IMG/VR virus record: IMGVR_UViG_3300005613_002492
Coordinates: 1-40,738 of that record
Source of the DNA: a virus
DNA length: 40,738 nucleotides
Direction: 5' to 3' (one strand)
The translations under genes and the position numbers were made by a program. This document shows, one piece after another, positions 3,376-40,738 of the stretch (its first letter is position 1; each line of letters opens with the position of its first letter). A model generated the notes under the pieces. The model saw nothing but the letters and a program-made list of their open reading frames with translations. It did not search any database and was not told the origin of the DNA.

Positions 3376-3613
3376 TTAATTCATTTAATAAATCATTTAA
3401 CTTATCTATTTCAATTTGAATAGATGACATTCTTTGATAAAATGGGTGGTTTTCTTTTGCCCAAGCAATCAGTTCTGTGTCTTTAGGTTTTGGTTCTAAT
3501 AATACATCTTGTAAATCTTTTATTTCTTTTTTCAAAGCATTAACATCAATAACCCTTTCCTCGGTTTTTATTTCTTTGACTGTGTCTTTGTCTATTGTTT
3601 CGTATGTTATCAT
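3368..3613 (-). CDS. Small helical protein, 81 aa
   Basis: ATG start (MITYETIDKDTVKEIKTEER). Most of the protein is predicted coiled coil, with leucine/isoleucine heptads (VNALKKEIKDLQDVLL and IQIEIDKLNDLLNEL). It overlaps both neighbours by a few bases, showing tight translational coupling inside the fibre gene cluster. It could be a trimerising chaperone or connector for the fibres on either side, but no family is recognised. Confidence 0.6.
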   Translation of the reverse strand: MITYETIDKDTVKEIKTEERVIDVNALKKEIKDLQDVLLEPKPKDTELIAWAKENHPFYQRMSSIQIEIDKLNDLLNELNG

Positions 3614-4560
3614 ATAATTTCTTTATAAGAATAAGTAATTACTTTTCCAGCCGAAGCACAATAAGCATATATTTGTTGTGAAGCACCCATATTCATAGTT
3701 GCTTTTCCGTCTGGTGGTAATAAAATACCGTTAGCATTTGAATTAGCAAATCCCCAATACATATCTGCATCGCTTCCATTGTAAAGAATTAAAATATGTT
3801 TTTCTGTTGAAGCCGTAGTAGGAACTGCATAAGCTGTATTAGCGTTAGTTAGAGTAACGCTTCCATTGCTGCCACTTCCTACTGGATATATTGGTTCACC
3901 AAAGCTATCTACTGTATCACCATCACTATTTTCTATTTTAACTGACTTGTAACCCCTACTACCACCTGAAGTACCACCAAAATTAAAATCTACTGGCTTA
4001 CCCTTACTATCTCGCAGTTGAACTGGTAGCGGATTAGCAATATCAACTCCTGCTAATTCCATAACTCCCCGAACACTCATGTCCCCTTCTGGCCACTCAA
4101 AGTCCATTTTAGGTACATTTACCTCTACTTTAGCCTCTGGTACGTTCACAATAGGCGCTTTAAGCCCTTTAAACGCTGTTTTAAGCGTGTTTTCTATGCC
4201 TTTGGTATCAATGTTCACTTTAGCCTCTGGAACGCTTATATCGGGTATTTTTACCTCTGGAACTGTTATGTTCGGCACCTTAATTTCAGGCACATCAACC
4301 TTAACCGCCTTAATAGCTTCTGATACTGCCTGTATGCTTTTATCAAAGGACTTGCTCTGCTCTACTAAACTTGCATTTATTGTATTAAAAACTTGTTTAT
4401 TTATCTCGCTTTGTTCATATAAAGCCTCAAGCACAGGATTTACAGCCTGCTCTACTAAATCAACATTAAACTCGTGGTCTCTCTGTTGGGCTTCTTTAGC
4501 ACGTTTAATATCTAACGCCCTATCTAAGTCTTTATCTAATTGTCTTAATTGTTCTGACAT
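3610..4560 (-). CDS. Virion shaft protein with VPxxKVP repeats, 316 aa
   Basis: Residues 1-85 are helical and charged. Residues about 88-150 carry a repeating Val-Pro pattern (VPEIKVPNITVPEVKIP and further copies), likely an extended fibrous shaft. Residues 154-192 hold WPEGDM followed by NPLPVQLRDSKGKPVDF. The same block occurs in the 605-residue protein at 5694-7511, so the two are paralogues over this region. The C-terminal 100 residues form a beta-rich domain (TLTNANTAYAVPTTASTEKHILIL) like small head-decoration or fibre-tip domains. A structural role in the virion is inferred. The stop lies within four bases of the next gene's start. Confidence 0.6.
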   Translation of the reverse strand: MSEQLRQLDKDLDRALDIKRAKEAQQRDHEFNVDLVEQAVNPVLEALYEQSEINKQVFNTINASLVEQSKSFDKSIQAVSEAIKAVKVDVPEIKVPNITVPEVKIPDISVPEAKVNIDTKGIENTLKTAFKGLKAPIVNVPEAKVEVNVPKMDFEWPEGDMSVRGVMELAGVDIANPLPVQLRDSKGKPVDFNFGGTSGGSRGYKSVKIENSDGDTVDSFGEPIYPVGSGSNGSVTLTNANTAYAVPTTASTEKHILILYNGSDADMYWGFANSNANGILLPPDGKATMNMGASQQIYAYCASAGKVITYSYKEII

Positions 4561-22081: not shown

Positions 22082-22204
22082 TTATGTCATTAAAAAAACC
22101 GAGAGGCTTGGAAAGTGCCTATCCCTACAGATAGGGACTACAGGTTGGTTACTGTATCTTTCCAAACCTTTCGGTTCTTTTAATAATATCTGTATTTTAG
22201 GCAT
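22082..22204 (-). CDS. Putative 40-aa leader peptide of the replication gene
   Basis: Starts with ATG after AAAAAAAAT, the start context common in this genome, and reads MPKIQILLKEPKGLERYSN on to ...SLSVFLMT and TAA, stopping three bases before the replication gene's ATG. It runs through the whole structured leader, so ribosomes on it would open the stems. Coding is plausible but unproven; the composition is not distinctive. Confidence 0.35.
   Translation of the reverse strand: MPKIQILLKEPKGLERYSNQPVVPICRDRHFPSLSVFLMT
22092..22182 (-). promoter_or_regulatory. Three-way-junction leader ending in terminator (attenuator candidate)
   Basis: On the minus strand AAAAGAACCGAAAGGTTTGG (from 22182) pairs with the segment ending CCAAGCCTCTCGGTTTTTTT (to 22092), about 24 positions with one mismatch and two G-U pairs. 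Inside lie two hairpins, CTATC/GATAG (22120-22135) and TACAG/CTGTA (22139-22155). The 3' arm runs into seven T's directly before the replication gene. The layout is that of a riboswitch or attenuator. Confidence 0.6.
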
Positions 22205-22713: not shown

Positions 22714-22908
22714 TTATAAATTAATTGTTAATGCTATATGAAACACAGCTATTAAAATAAGTAAAAATAATGCTAATCCAAACTGCAAAGTAATGAACGC
22801 CCATAAAAAGCCTACTAGCAAAGCTATGAATACTATCCATAGTATAATACCTGATATTGTATTTAGGATAATCATTATGTTTTCTGGGATTGGGTCGTTT
22901 AGTTTCAT
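22714..22908 (-). CDS. Two-span small membrane protein, 64 aa
   Basis: After a short polar N-terminus (MKLNDPIPEN) come two hydrophobic stretches (IMIILNTISGIILWIVFIAL and LLVGFLWAFITLQFGLALFL and on to the end). A weak AGAGG site precedes the ATG. It lies directly downstream of the pseudoknotted RNA candidate and before the 80-residue membrane protein. It is holin-like in size but placed among control genes; no family is recognised. Confidence 0.55.
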   Translation of the reverse strand: MKLNDPIPENIMIILNTISGIILWIVFIALLVGFLWAFITLQFGLALFLLILIAVFHIALTINL

Positions 22909-22943
22909 ACCTCTTATATTTAATTATTTAGTTTATTTAGTAA

Positions 22944-23175
22944 TTAACTTAATCTTGGTTAGGTAAGGATTTATTAATAAATAAGTTGAAACCCACTCAA
23001 TTACGGATTTGCACCGCTGTGCCACTATAGGAATAATTGGCGTTTTATTTCAACTTTTTGTATCCACCTGGTTTATCTATTAACTACACCCTACAAAGCA
23101 ATCCAATGTACATTTGGCTACTAACTACTAATTTTGTATGCGTTATTATTCCGCCACTAACCAAGATAAAATTAA
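22944..23175 (-). ncRNA. Structured RNA candidate with closing stem and pseudoknot
   Basis: A 319-base gene-free stretch holds a 232-base element. Its ends, TTAACTTAATCTTGGTTAG (22944-22962) and its partner at 23157-23175, pair over 19 positions with two mismatches. Inside, AAGTTGAAA/TTTCAACTT (22983-22991 with 23048-23056) and GGAATAAT/ATTATTCC (23030-23037 with 23145-23152) cross each other, forming a pseudoknot. A GCAC/GTGC hairpin (23011-23022) and CCAATG/CATTTGG (23103-23117) add to it. On the minus strand a TATAAT at 23188-23183 would start transcription at the first base of the closing stem. No known RNA family is recognised. The strand is inferred. Confidence 0.5.
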
Positions 23176-23191
23176 CTACATTATTATACTA

Positions 23192-23208
23192 AAAATTGAA
23201 TAGGATAT
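23192..23208. repeat. 17-bp perfect inverted repeat, left copy
   Basis: AAAATTGAATAGGATAT, exactly the reverse complement of 23574-23590. The pair brackets the small gene at 23228-23557. The match stops cleanly at both ends. Confidence 0.9.
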
Positions 23209-23227
23209 TTTAATTAGCTAATTAAAT

Positions 23228-23557
23228 TTATTTATGGGCGATAGCTTCTTTCAAAGCATTTACTGATTTTTCTGTAATATCATCTGCCATACTACCAATG
23301 CCGTGCATTGAACTTTGCACATAGATGCTAGCAAATTTTTCTGCAAGTGATTGAGCAAGTTGATAATTTGATATGGCTGTTAAGCTTGCTGTTTCGTCTG
23401 TATAATTTGCTCTGTAAAAATCTTTTGTTTTTTTAGGTATTAAACCTAAGTCGGATAAAGTATATCCAAACGCTTTAGCGATTTTACGAGCCAGTGCTGG
23501 GTCAATCAAACTTCTTGAATACTCCAACATAAGTTCCATAGCTTTAGCTTTAGTCAT
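23228..23557 (-). CDS. Putative small regulator at the early/late switch, 109 aa
   Basis: I prefer the ATG at 23557 (MTKAKAMELMLEYSRSLIDP), which has AAAGGA upstream; an ATG at 23575 is also open. The segment LARKIAKAFGYTLSDLGLI could be a helix-turn-helix, followed by a helical C-terminal half (YQLAQSLAEKFASIYVQSS). It is the first gene after the minus-facing member of the divergent promoter pair, the normal seat of a phage repressor or Cro-like protein. A perfect inverted repeat flanks it. DNA binding is inferred, not shown by a clear family match. Confidence 0.5.
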   Translation of the reverse strand: MTKAKAMELMLEYSRSLIDPALARKIAKAFGYTLSDLGLIPKKTKDFYRANYTDETASLTAISNYQLAQSLAEKFASIYVQSSMHGIGSMADDITEKSVNALKEAIAHK

Positions 23558-23573
23558 ATAGTTGTGTCCTTTC

Positions 23574-23590
23574 ATATCCTATTCAATTTT
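23574..23590. repeat. 17-bp perfect inverted repeat, right copy
   Basis: ATATCCTATTCAATTTT, reverse complement of 23192-23208. It lies in the 5' leader of the small regulator gene, between its promoter and its ATG. Confidence 0.9.
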
Positions 23591-23608
23591 CAATGTACTT
23601 GTAAATAC

Positions 23609-23637
23609 ACTATAGCATACTTTAATAATTATTGCAA
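23609..23637 (-). promoter_or_regulatory. Minus-facing divergent promoter
   Basis: On the minus strand TTGCAA (23637-23632), 17-base spacer, TATAGT (23614-23609), followed by GTATTTACAAG. It drives the small gene at 23228-23557 and probably the RNA candidate and membrane proteins beyond. Confidence 0.7.
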
Positions 23638-23670
23638 TATTAGCTTGTGGATAACTTTGTATAAAAACTA

Positions 23671-23699
23671 TTGCATTTATTTAATAGTTATGCTATACT
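23671..23699 (+). promoter_or_regulatory. Plus-facing divergent promoter of the early operon
   Basis: TTGCAT (23671-23676), 17-base spacer, TATACT (23694-23699), then GTATTCACAAG. It matches the minus-facing promoter closely from TATGCTATA through ACAAG, so one regulator could bind both. It drives the genes from 23821 onward. Confidence 0.75.
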
Positions 23700-23719
23700 G
23701 TATTCACAAGGTTAAAAGA

Positions 23720-23793
23720 GTGGCTAAGATAATAAGTAAAGGCAAACCCCGAAAGGGTAAAATAAAATAACCCAATACTTATTATCTAGCCAC
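23720..23793 (+). promoter_or_regulatory. Early-operon leader hairpin with two competing inner hairpins
   Basis: GTGGCTAAGATAATAAGTA (23720-23738) pairs with TACTTATTATCTAGCCAC (23776-23793): 18 bp with one bulged A. Inside, CCC-CGAA-GGG (around 23748-23756) competes with GGGT/ACCC (around 23755-23773) for the same G's. It lies about 13 bases after the expected transcription start and 27 bases before the first early ATG. No T-run follows, so it is not a simple terminator. Confidence 0.65.
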
Positions 23794-23820
23794 CTCGCCT
23801 TAACTATTAACCCCAATAAT

Positions 23821-24075
23821 ATGAACACTTATCAAATACACAACAAACAAATTATGGAAGGTGTTACAGATTTTAGAAACTGGCAACACCTACCAACAGG
23901 CATACTAAGATGTGTAGCCTGCGGTCAACACAACATTACAGCACCTATTATGAATTACTTTAACTGGGATGGCTCACGATTTACTTGCCGCAAATGCCAA
24001 GACGAAAATAAAGAACCATTTGACGAAAAAGCATTCATACTTGATAAACATTATTTAGCAACTAACATAAACTAA
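23821..24075 (+). CDS. Zinc-ribbon protein, first early gene, 84 aa
   Basis: Two CxxC pairs (CVAC at 31-34 and CRKC at 56-59) with a 21-residue spacing predict a zinc ribbon. The N-terminus is polar and helical (MNTYQIHNKQIMEGVTDFRN). The start is ATG after CCCAATAAT with no Shine-Dalgarno site. As the first gene of the early transcript it may be a transcription or takeover factor, but no family is recognised. Confidence 0.65.
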   Translation: MNTYQIHNKQIMEGVTDFRNWQHLPTGILRCVACGQHNITAPIMNYFNWDGSRFTCRKCQDENKEPFDEKAFILDKHYLATNIN

Positions 24076-38737: not shown

Positions 38738-39535
38738 TTAGTACTCAAATTTATCCCAGTCACATTTGAAATACTTACCCCTCATGTGATATTTGTCTGC
38801 TTTCGTTAATTGCATTTTTTTCCAATTTAATTCTTTAATTAATTTAATAAATAATTTATAAATTCTTTCATCTTCTAATATTAGCAAAAGTATTCTCTTT
38901 AACAGTCGCTGTCTTTCTTTCATATCGCCGATAACTTCAGCATTTTCTAGTTCGGTTAAGGCTAGACTGAATATTCTCTCTGGTTTTATCCACCATCTAG
39001 GTCTAAATATACCGAATAACCATTGAACTCTAAACCGATAAGCATCATCTTCCTGTAATATAAAGCATAACATCTCTTTTAATGGTCGGATTATATCACT
39101 TTCACTCTCTAAGGTAGTCATAGCTCGCCATAATTCCTTTACTGGCATAACCATTTTATCTGGTGGGATAGCATCATACTTAACCTTGTCCCAAAATTCA
39201 GTTAAACCAGTGCGTAATTTCTGCTTTATATTGGCTATAACCTGCTCGTGTGGTACTCCATTTTCCAATTCGTACCAACTGTCATTGAATATCTGATTCT
39301 TTATCTGATGTTTTAATGGGGATAGCGAACCAAATAGACTATGTCCTCTAGGATAACCAGGAAATACCTCGTCTTCTCCATCCATATGCATGACTGTAGC
39401 ACCGTCCTTGTTGGTAGTTACCTTAGCACTAACAGCATCACTGAATCGCCAGTACTTGACCATCGGCATTGTATCGGGTCTTTTGCGTAATAATTTAAAG
39501 AACTTTCTTTTTATCCATCTTTTTGTGTAATACAT
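38738..39535 (-). CDS. Conserved-looking phage protein after capsid gene, 265 aa
   Basis: ATG start (MYYTKRWIKRKFFKLLRKRP). A basic N-terminus is followed by FSDAVSAKVTTNKDGATVMH and a helical C-terminal half rich in Trp, Arg and Leu (FRVQWLFGIFRPRWWIKPER, RQRLLKRILLLILEDERIYK). No motif is recognised. The place after the major capsid gene is often held by head-completion or connector proteins. A structured RNA element separates it from the capsid gene. Confidence 0.55.
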   Translation of the reverse strand: MYYTKRWIKRKFFKLLRKRPDTMPMVKYWRFSDAVSAKVTTNKDGATVMHMDGEDEVFPGYPRGHSLFGSLSPLKHQIKNQIFNDSWYELENGVPHEQVIANIKQKLRTGLTEFWDKVKYDAIPPDKMVMPVKELWRAMTTLESESDIIRPLKEMLCFILQEDDAYRFRVQWLFGIFRPRWWIKPERIFSLALTELENAEVIGDMKERQRLLKRILLLILEDERIYKLFIKLIKELNWKKMQLTKADKYHMRGKYFKCDWDKFEY

Positions 39536-39536
39536 A

Positions 39537-39600
39537 AACTCATTTGTAAACGCTCGGCTGGGCTAAAGGCGTTTACTCTAAAGCCCAACCAAAACGAGTT
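39537..39600 (-). promoter_or_regulatory. Alternative-stem RNA element downstream of capsid gene
   Basis: Three stems: outer AACTCATTT/AAACGAGTT (39537-39545, 39592-39600), GTAAACGC/GCGTTTAC (39546-39553, 39569-39576) and GGCTGGGCT/AGCCCAACC (39556-39564, 39582-39590). The last two interleave. On the minus strand the imperfect pairs become G-U. The connecting loop is only 2 bases, too short to span the 9-bp stem, so they probably alternate rather than coexist. It fills nearly the whole gap after the capsid stop. Confidence 0.6.
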
Positions 39601-39608
39601 AATTAAAA

Positions 39609-40738
39609 CTAGTAGTTGCCAAATAGAATAGCACCTAATTTACGTCCGTATGAAGTTACTAATGCTCCATATAGATATAAACCTTGATACTTCTTAGCAA
39701 ACTGGTCTTCAGCATCAATTACACGACTCTCAGACCATTTATCAGCATAAGTGATAAAGCCTTTGTGTCCTGCAACAATGAAGTAACCATTTGAACTAGC
39801 TGTAAAGTCACCAGAACCAGTTGAATGACCAGCACGTAGTGATAGGCGTGAGCCTGCAGCAACGTGAATGTCAAAGCCACCAATTCTCATAATCTTACCA
39901 TTTGTAACTGTGCCTTTATACATCTCGGCAATTCCTGTTGGCTGAGTTTCACTAGCTTGTAAAAGCATAGTTTTAATCTCTGGTGGAATTACTAAGTATC
40001 TATCCATTTCAGGTACTTCATTCTGATTTAATTTCTCAGCAAGTAAAGTAACTTGGTCATAGATAGAAGCAGCAGATACAGCAGTAGCTAGAGCAGCTTG
40101 GATTTCCCAACCTAAACCATCTTGTGTACCAGATGCTAGGATAGCAGCGTTGCCATCACCAGTCTTAGGGAAAGTAATACCATCACCACCGTAAACACCA
40201 CGCAAAGTGTAACCTTCTTGGAAGTCACTACCAGTTGTTTCGCCATCCCACTCTGTTAGAGATGCAGATGTTGAACTTGCAACAGCAGTAATCTTATACC
40301 AAGGAGTTACAAAAGTAGCAGATGAACGCAAACGGAAGCCTTTACCTACATCAGTGGCCTCGAAACCACCAAATGCGATAGTACCATCACCTTGTTCTAC
40401 ACCAGTAGCATTACCTGCGGTAACACTTTCTGAGAACATCAATGTTACAGTACCACCAGTAGCAGTTGTAACGATAGAGGCGGCAGTTTGAACATTACCA
40501 GCAACTTTTACGTTAACACCTACCCAAGAACCAGCCTTTGCATCTACAGCCTTGTCTAAAACGTAAGCATCAACTTCTCGTTCTAATACAGCAGCTCTAT
40601 TTGTTAAAAGATTTTCAACAACATTGCCACCATAAGTAAACAAATCTTCCAATCTGTCTAGTGAGAAGTTAAAGTATTTGCGTTTTTCAACATCCAAAGT
40701 GTCTTCGTTATCTAGAATAGTTTCAGATACCATAACTG
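39609..40738 (-). CDS. Major capsid protein, main part (continues at 214-1)
   Basis: The frame from the window end down to TAG at 39609-39611 gives 374 residues from an internal Met (VSETILDN). Joined to the 71 residues at 1-214 it makes about 436. Regions seen: a helical segment (FNFSLDRLEDLFTYGGNVVE ... AVLEREVDAYVLDKAV), like the spine helix and E-loop region of HK97-fold coats; a beta-rich insertion (about 90-180 here); and a C-terminal P-domain (MDRYLVIPPEIKTMLLQASE, GGFDIHVAAGSRLSLRAG, GFITYADKWSESRVIDAEDQ). Coat-protein identity rests on this pattern, the adjacent scaffold gene and length. Confidence 0.83.
   Translation of the reverse strand, partial: VMVSETILDNEDTLDVEKRKYFNFSLDRLEDLFTYGGNVVENLLTNRAAVLEREVDAYVLDKAVDAKAGSWVGVNVKVAGNVQTAASIVTTATGGTVTLMFSESVTAGNATGVEQGDGTIAFGGFEATDVGKGFRLRSSATFVTPWYKITAVASSTSASLTEWDGETTGSDFQEGYTLRGVYGGDGITFPKTGDGNAAILASGTQDGLGWEIQAALATAVSAASIYDQVTLLAEKLNQNEVPEMDRYLVIPPEIKTMLLQASETQPTGIAEMYKGTVTNGKIMRIGGFDIHVAAGSRLSLRAGHSTGSGDFTASSNGYFIVAGHKGFITYADKWSESRVIDAEDQFAKKYQGLYLYGALVTSYGRKLGAILFGNY
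40706..40738. repeat. Terminal near-repeat, right copy
   Basis: Matches 1-33 at 31 of 33 bases; see the left copy. It encodes the junction of the capsid protein, where the two versions differ by Ile-Val against Ile-Leu and by a base just before the internal ATG. Confidence 0.85.

Follow-up and report, generated by a model that had tools for sequence, protein, structure and literature searches.

What RNA, if any, is encoded in the gene-free gap at positions 22909-23227 of a 40.7-kb virus record, and what such an RNA might do for the phage, is the question addressed here; the whole record, whose 33-bp ends are nearly identical, is referred to as the window. A first-pass annotation, made from the letters alone, had placed in this gap a minus-strand structured RNA with a closing stem, two crossing internal stems and a TATAAT box placed for its transcription, and had suggested that it could be a regulatory RNA, a riboswitch for the downstream membrane-protein genes, or a decoy for host factors. 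The gap and each of these elements do exist. The closing stem (22944-22962/23157-23175) covers 19 positions with two mismatches (of 100 dinucleotide-shuffled versions of the gap, one has such a stem), the 9-bp stem AAGTTGAAA/TTTCAACTT lies near 23056-23048 with 22991-22983, the 8-bp stem GGAATAAT/ATTATTCC joins 23152-23145 with 23037-23030, and the minus-strand TATAAT predicts an RNA start near 23176. The minus-strand fold reaches -64 kcal/mol (z -4.1; 1 of 200 shuffles is as low) and that of the plus strand is unremarkable (z -1.7); a coarse scan of 338 stretches of the window puts it among the top 15, with others more extreme.

What held of this proposal is the minus-strand structured RNA, which relatives in other phages support with strong covariation; the proposed fold did not, the architecture being learned from those relatives instead. 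When G-U pairs are allowed, a crossing pair of helices of at least 8 bp appears in 296 of 300 shuffles, and a crossing 8 x 9 bp pair restricted to Watson-Crick pairs appears in 2.2% of shuffles. No compensatory changes are seen in the crossing stems, the relatives keeping GGAATAGG with no matching strand conserved in the insertion, as judged from the sequences. The pseudoknot is unsupported because its strand GGAATAAT is part of a D arm shared with the relatives.

Relatives of the RNA in other phages

Direct BLAST with the window RNA against phages, plasmids and 77 related records returned chance matches only, and guessed DNA patterns returned nothing, or chance matches in coding DNA. A terminase scan gave 317 relatives, with 80 of the 317 listed, and 33 loci came from a capsid scan; scans with neighbouring genes found no close relative with the region, and one relative (L003) without the RNA. 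Leader pseudoknots in L003 and G016 were considered as homologues and dropped, sequence and context being unsupportive.

A covariance model for which the window RNA was the sole input (R1) yielded a single, borderline match, in record G055 (E 0.07). The two RNAs have AGTGGCGGAATA in common immediately inward of the 5' arm and AAATCCTT[AG]CCT immediately inward of the 3' arm. The closing stem of G055, AAAAGCTAGAG/CTCTAGCTTTT, pairs throughout although it differs entirely from the ATCTTGGTTAG/CTAACCAAGAT of the window. A motif scan and its follow-ups added G024, G044 (two copies), G010 and G043, and BLAST searches started from G044a and G010 located the shared 5' block in cultured phages, within gaps that carry no annotation. 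Eight annotated Firmicutes phages carry the RNA in such gaps, with no tRNA call there, namely Lactiplantibacillus phages Gut-P1 and H1-Guo, Lactobacillus phage Lenus, Bacillus phage KLEB27-1, Lacticaseibacillus phage R24.2, Weissella phage WC29P3, Enterococcus phage 21C1 and Latilactobacillus phage TMW 1.1386 P1, the last with a compact RNA of 80 nt. In all eight, no more than one mismatch interrupts the 7-bp acceptor stem, the D block is letter-identical, and a 6-bp T stem and the loop TGCAAAT are present. Enterococcus phages EA1 and EfV12 and Listeria phage PSA are members confirmed by model, and Enterococcus phage phiFL2A carries a shortened copy with a weak match (E 0.001). With the 21C1 RNA as query, matches at E<=1 come from 106 phage records, an upper bound since many of these matches cover the T arm alone; the family is seen in about 20 phage genomes, from phages of Enterococcus, Listeria, Lactobacillus and Bacillus as well as uncultured phages.

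A further probable member lies at L095:10949-11043 on the minus strand (record G029; 23.4 bits, E 0.004 with the family model R2 described below). In L200 and L207, a second conserved tRNA-like block (GATTAAGATAACGGTAGTCTATCGGGGTGCGCACAG...GGTTCGACTCC), unannotated as a tRNA, follows just downstream of the family member.

A tRNA-like architecture and its covariation

The members share a layout of a 7-bp acceptor stem, the D-arm block TGGCGGAATAGGTAGACGC, a variable middle (28-105 nt in the relatives), a 6-bp T stem and the loop TGCAAAT. From the letters of the D arm we take this order of acceptor, TGGCGGAATAGGTAGACGC, T stem and T loop to be tRNA-Leu-like, and no anticodon arm is recognised in the family. 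Across 14 members, 99.6% of pair cells hold and 12 of the 16 core pairs change on both sides, in an alignment that leans toward structure because its blocks were cut by hand, the middle and the insertion being left out. In that alignment, 65 cells are changed on both sides as against 18.5 in shuffles, and control pairing falls to 72% of cells in shuffles and to 34-53% when the strands are slid. An uncut MAFFT alignment of five members agrees, with 99% paired and eight pairs changed on both sides.

The T loop is interrupted in the window and in five other copies (G055, G024, both of G044, and G010) by an insertion of 48-116 nt, always at the same place and absent from the compact members; a point between positions 55 and 56 fits all members. 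The loops of these five other copies read TG-[ACTATACGAG...CTCGT]-CAAAT, with G for the final T in G055, and excising the insertion restores TGCAAAT, the loop of the compact members, in four members. Since ACGAG and CTCGT pair, the insertion extends the T arm by a hairpin. The insertion motif is absent elsewhere in 380 genomes, and one match in a small-genome bacterium was set aside as Nudix coding sequence.

The window copy as a very probable member of the family

The window RNA is very probably a divergent member of this phage tRNA-like family, as judged by comparison with the other members. All 16 core pairs are intact, its acceptor stem is unique among the members compared, and as elsewhere in the family the 7-bp acceptor stem directly abuts the 6-bp T stem on the 3' side, the closing stem continuing outwards to 22952/23167 (Table 1). 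A model (R2) that combines G043 with six members from Firmicutes phages, the window being excluded, matches the window at 21.8 bits with an E of 1.1e-5 per 1 kb with filters off, which corresponds to roughly 4e-4 for the window; its ends are exactly those assigned by hand, the T-loop insertion being bridged. With default speed filters (1 Mb, E<=1) the same model misses the window copy. Its E values for the metagenomic members run from 9e-7 to 2e-12, apart from 0.03 for the second copy of G044. A strict descriptor, composed once the family had been defined, hits 15 distinct places in 4.5 Mb of strands; every one is a member, the window copy included, and three shuffles give no hit.

Against TGGCGGAATAGGTAGACGC, the window D arm retains the stem and TGGCGGAATA and has lost the D-loop GG and two further bases, and the T loop retains UG and UAAAU around an insertion whose sequence differs from that of the relatives. 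Within this insertion, at 23004-23016, lies a second T-arm-like hairpin, CGG-TGCAAAT-CCG. The D-loop GG and T-loop C56 make the elbow pair of tRNAs. The window copy has neither, nor does it carry the TGACTATACGAG/CTCGT motif found in its closest relatives; it may therefore have decayed, or may use another tertiary contact.

Table 1. Parts of the tRNA-like RNA of the window and its flanks (window coordinates)
Feature	Position	Strand	Basis or remark
Whole tRNA-like RNA, 208 nt	22956-23163	minus	5' end 23163; R2 match at the same ends; descriptor scan
Acceptor-like stem, 5' strand TGGTTAG	23157-23163	minus	Partner strand 22956-22962; both sides change at 6 of 7 pairs in 14 members
Acceptor-like stem, 3' strand CTAACCA	22956-22962	minus	Same covariation, 14 members
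D-arm-like TG-GCG-GAATAATAA-CGC	23140-23156	minus	Aligned to family TGGCGGAATAGGTAGACGC; without the GG (G18G19) of other members
Variable middle, at the position of the tRNA anticodon and variable arms	23095-23139	minus	No anticodon arm recognised
T stem, 5' strand GTAGGG	23089-23094	minus	Partner strand 22963-22968; covariation at 5 of 6 pairs in the family
T stem, 3' strand CCTTAC, preceded by TAAAT	22963-22968	minus	Covariation
T-loop insertion, about 113-116 nt, long hairpin	22974-23086	minus	After TG, before TAAAT; fold
TATAAT, candidate -10 box	23183-23188	minus	Seen in the sequence
Gene for 64-aa membrane protein	22714-22908	minus	ORF; starts 47 nt after the RNA

Comparison with known RNAs

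No match to the gap RNA was found in Rfam 15, in keeping with the first reading, and the family as a whole is absent from that release and blank in annotated genomes. ARAGORN calls no ordinary tRNA on the window RNA, and neither ARAGORN nor the Rfam tRNA model gives a call at 22940-23185; likewise, no covariance-model match to tmRNA was found in the window, the ARAGORN tmRNA search also being negative. The likeness to tRNA-Leu lies in the 7-bp acceptor stem, the D arm TGGCGGAAT-GG-..CGC, the T stem, and T-loop letters near UUCAAAU, whereas the phage RNA differs in having no recognised anticodon arm, a 13-bp stack of acceptor and T stem and, in some members, the T-loop insertion. GOLLD and ROOL are structured phage RNAs often found near tRNA genes. 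They differ from the phage tRNA-like RNA in being far larger, and there is no Rfam match to either. Structures of both are given in PMC12286853. By description, the closest RNA is YrlA, a bacterial Y RNA, which is small, has a tRNA-like domain of D, T and acceptor arms, and has ends that form a stem (PMC8394870). Identity with YrlA was dropped, its model RF02553 giving no match in six records, and no phage-encoded Ro60/TROVE gene was found in 15 phage records. Transfer-messenger RNA also has a tRNA-like acceptor stem and T arm and adjoins the family member in Enterococcus phage 21C1, but the phage RNA has an intact D stem rather than a tmRNA D loop, and no tag reading frame is seen. Group I intron, RNase P and tmRNA were dropped as identities, there being no Rfam match and the size being wrong. 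No description of the family was found in the open-access literature, coverage of which was partial, so that an earlier description elsewhere is possible.

Other structured sites in the window and in related phages

In 1.04 Mb of related phages, strong crossing helices occur at 46 places in non-coding DNA, against 5.8 per shuffle, at -14 kcal/mol, and at 32 against 1.6 when both helices reach -15 kcal/mol or better; the coding DNA of the same scan has no such excess. The clearest case stands directly behind the major capsid gene (39609-40733) on the minus strand of the window, where a compact H-type pseudoknot occupies 39539-39598 and ORF 38738-39535 comes next. In it, TGGGCT/AGCCCA crosses GTAAACGC/GCGTTTAC, and the outer stem that encloses it, CTCGTTT/AAATGAG, abuts the start of the next gene. 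By eye, the same architecture recurs behind the capsid gene, with different stems, at most distinct related loci (G005, G012, G016, G021, G023, L141, L143, L145, L149, L152 and others), its core often being CCTGACGGA...CGTCAGG. It has no Rfam match and, from the sequences compared, looks like an undescribed covarying RNA motif.

Several further structures belong to the control region of the window or have counterparts in related records. On the minus strand, 22087-22194 folds into a very stable Y-shaped hairpin (z -5.9) that ends in CGGTTTTTTT just before the start of a DnaD-like gene and has a TATAAT upstream, and terminator-like pseudoknots stand just before a gene start in L003 (1250-1358) and L132 (1886-1987); these three are possible attenuators. 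A 24-nt inverted repeat (23185-23208 and 23574-23597) brackets ORF 23228-23575, which has a single relative, about 50% identical; that relative, in L003, lies between the arms of a 27-nt inverted repeat of unrelated sequence (3522-3548 and 3899-3925), so the mRNA ends may pair around the gene. At 23598-23710, divergent, near-identical promoter-like sequences, ATGCTATA[GC]TGTATT[CT]ACAAG, make up a 42-nt inverted repeat with a DnaA-box-like TTATCCACA between them. On the plus strand, the leader of the rightward operon contains a long hairpin at 23718-23796 (z -5.3), which encloses ACCCCGAAAGGGT and a second ACCC.

Possible functions of the tRNA-like RNA

The contexts of the members bear on what the RNA may do. 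Family members stand among phage tRNA genes in Gut-P1 and Lenus, after the phage tmRNA in 21C1, and between a late activator and a terminase gene in phiFL2A, while terminator-like hairpins lie 3' of the member in KLEB27-1 and WC29P3. The relatives precede no homologous gene, and these tRNA, tmRNA, late-gene and terminator settings therefore favour a free RNA over the leader of a single gene; they also leave the proposed riboswitch for the membrane genes without support. The copy in the window has no terminator and lies ahead of a membrane-protein operon, which suits a leader as well as a free RNA; a processing role is conceivable there too.

In the mechanism that we favour, the RNA would be transcribed from its own -10 box or by read-through from the upstream gene, and its two ends would form the acceptor-like stem, followed by a D arm of the tRNA-Leu type, with the T arm stacked on the acceptor. 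Folded into a tRNA elbow and acceptor helix, it would be bound by host factors that recognise this shape and do not read the anticodon; it would occupy a host tRNA-binding protein such as a tRNA-processing or tRNA-targeting enzyme, and would itself be incapable of decoding. Such a mimic or decoy would rank first among the functions and a processing signal second, and of the three early proposals the host-factor decoy appears the most compatible with the analysis. The location of members among phage tRNAs and tmRNA (Gut-P1, Lenus, 21C1) and the terminator-like hairpins of KLEB27-1 and WC29P3 support mimicry, although taken alone we put this role at somewhat less than even odds. Overall, a family of tRNA-like RNAs combined with a mimic or decoy mechanism is the best explanation, with a probability of about 0.7.

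RNase P needs no more of a substrate than an acceptor stem and a T arm, and the fold could accordingly be a processing signal, cut by RNase P and the tRNA-maturation enzymes to trim polycistronic phage transcripts, with no further job as an RNA; in the window, such a cut would free the mRNA of the membrane-protein operon. The short distance from the window copy to the ORF start (Table 1) and the placement of members in intergenic DNA or among tRNAs, that of phiFL2A included, agree with this, but several members are apparently followed by a terminator, needless for a processing site, and the letters of the D arm and T loop are conserved far beyond what RNase P needs, which makes it a rather unlikely account. 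An RNA that acts in cis as leader of the membrane-protein operon, in the manner of a riboswitch or attenuator, and owes its tRNA-like form to descent only, is a little less likely again: the RNA does lie just upstream of ORF 22714-22908, and other operons of the control region start with strongly folded leaders (22087-22194, z -5.9; 23700-23825, z -5.3), yet it has neither a terminator nor pairing with the start site, and no homologous gene lies downstream in the relatives.

The loss of the D-loop GG, C56 and the conserved internal-loop motif would be expected of a functionless relic of the family, but the intact core pairs, an acceptor stem unlike that of any other member and a fold energy far below that of shuffles render decay of the window copy improbable. 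Least probable is a working tRNA-Leu, unusual or intron-bearing, in which the insertion and the odd middle would be removed or tolerated. The tRNA-Leu-like D arm and the 7-nt TGCAAAT loop left by excision in four members speak for it; against it, the compact members without an insertion receive no tRNA call either, the window and G055 yield nothing but implausible predictions even with introns allowed, the middle of 28-105 nt has no anticodon arm in common, and T stem and acceptor add up to 13 bp, with acceptor pairing that extends by varying lengths.

Returning to the mimic or decoy, a wider form of it would make the family a widespread, as yet undescribed class of phage RNAs that copy the elbow and acceptor of tRNA without the anticodon and act in trans as decoys for a host protein that handles tRNAs or targets them in defence. 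In the window's lineage, the T-loop insertion would then serve as an extra module for protein binding; we regard this form as speculative and, for now, doubtful. Mimicry of tRNA is known from tmRNA, from Y RNAs and from the ends of plant-virus RNAs. The candidate in the window is tied to a real RNA class only via distant homologues with very little sequence in common, and because cultured phages carry members, the function is directly testable. Phages, it appears, carry tRNA mimics that current annotation misses.
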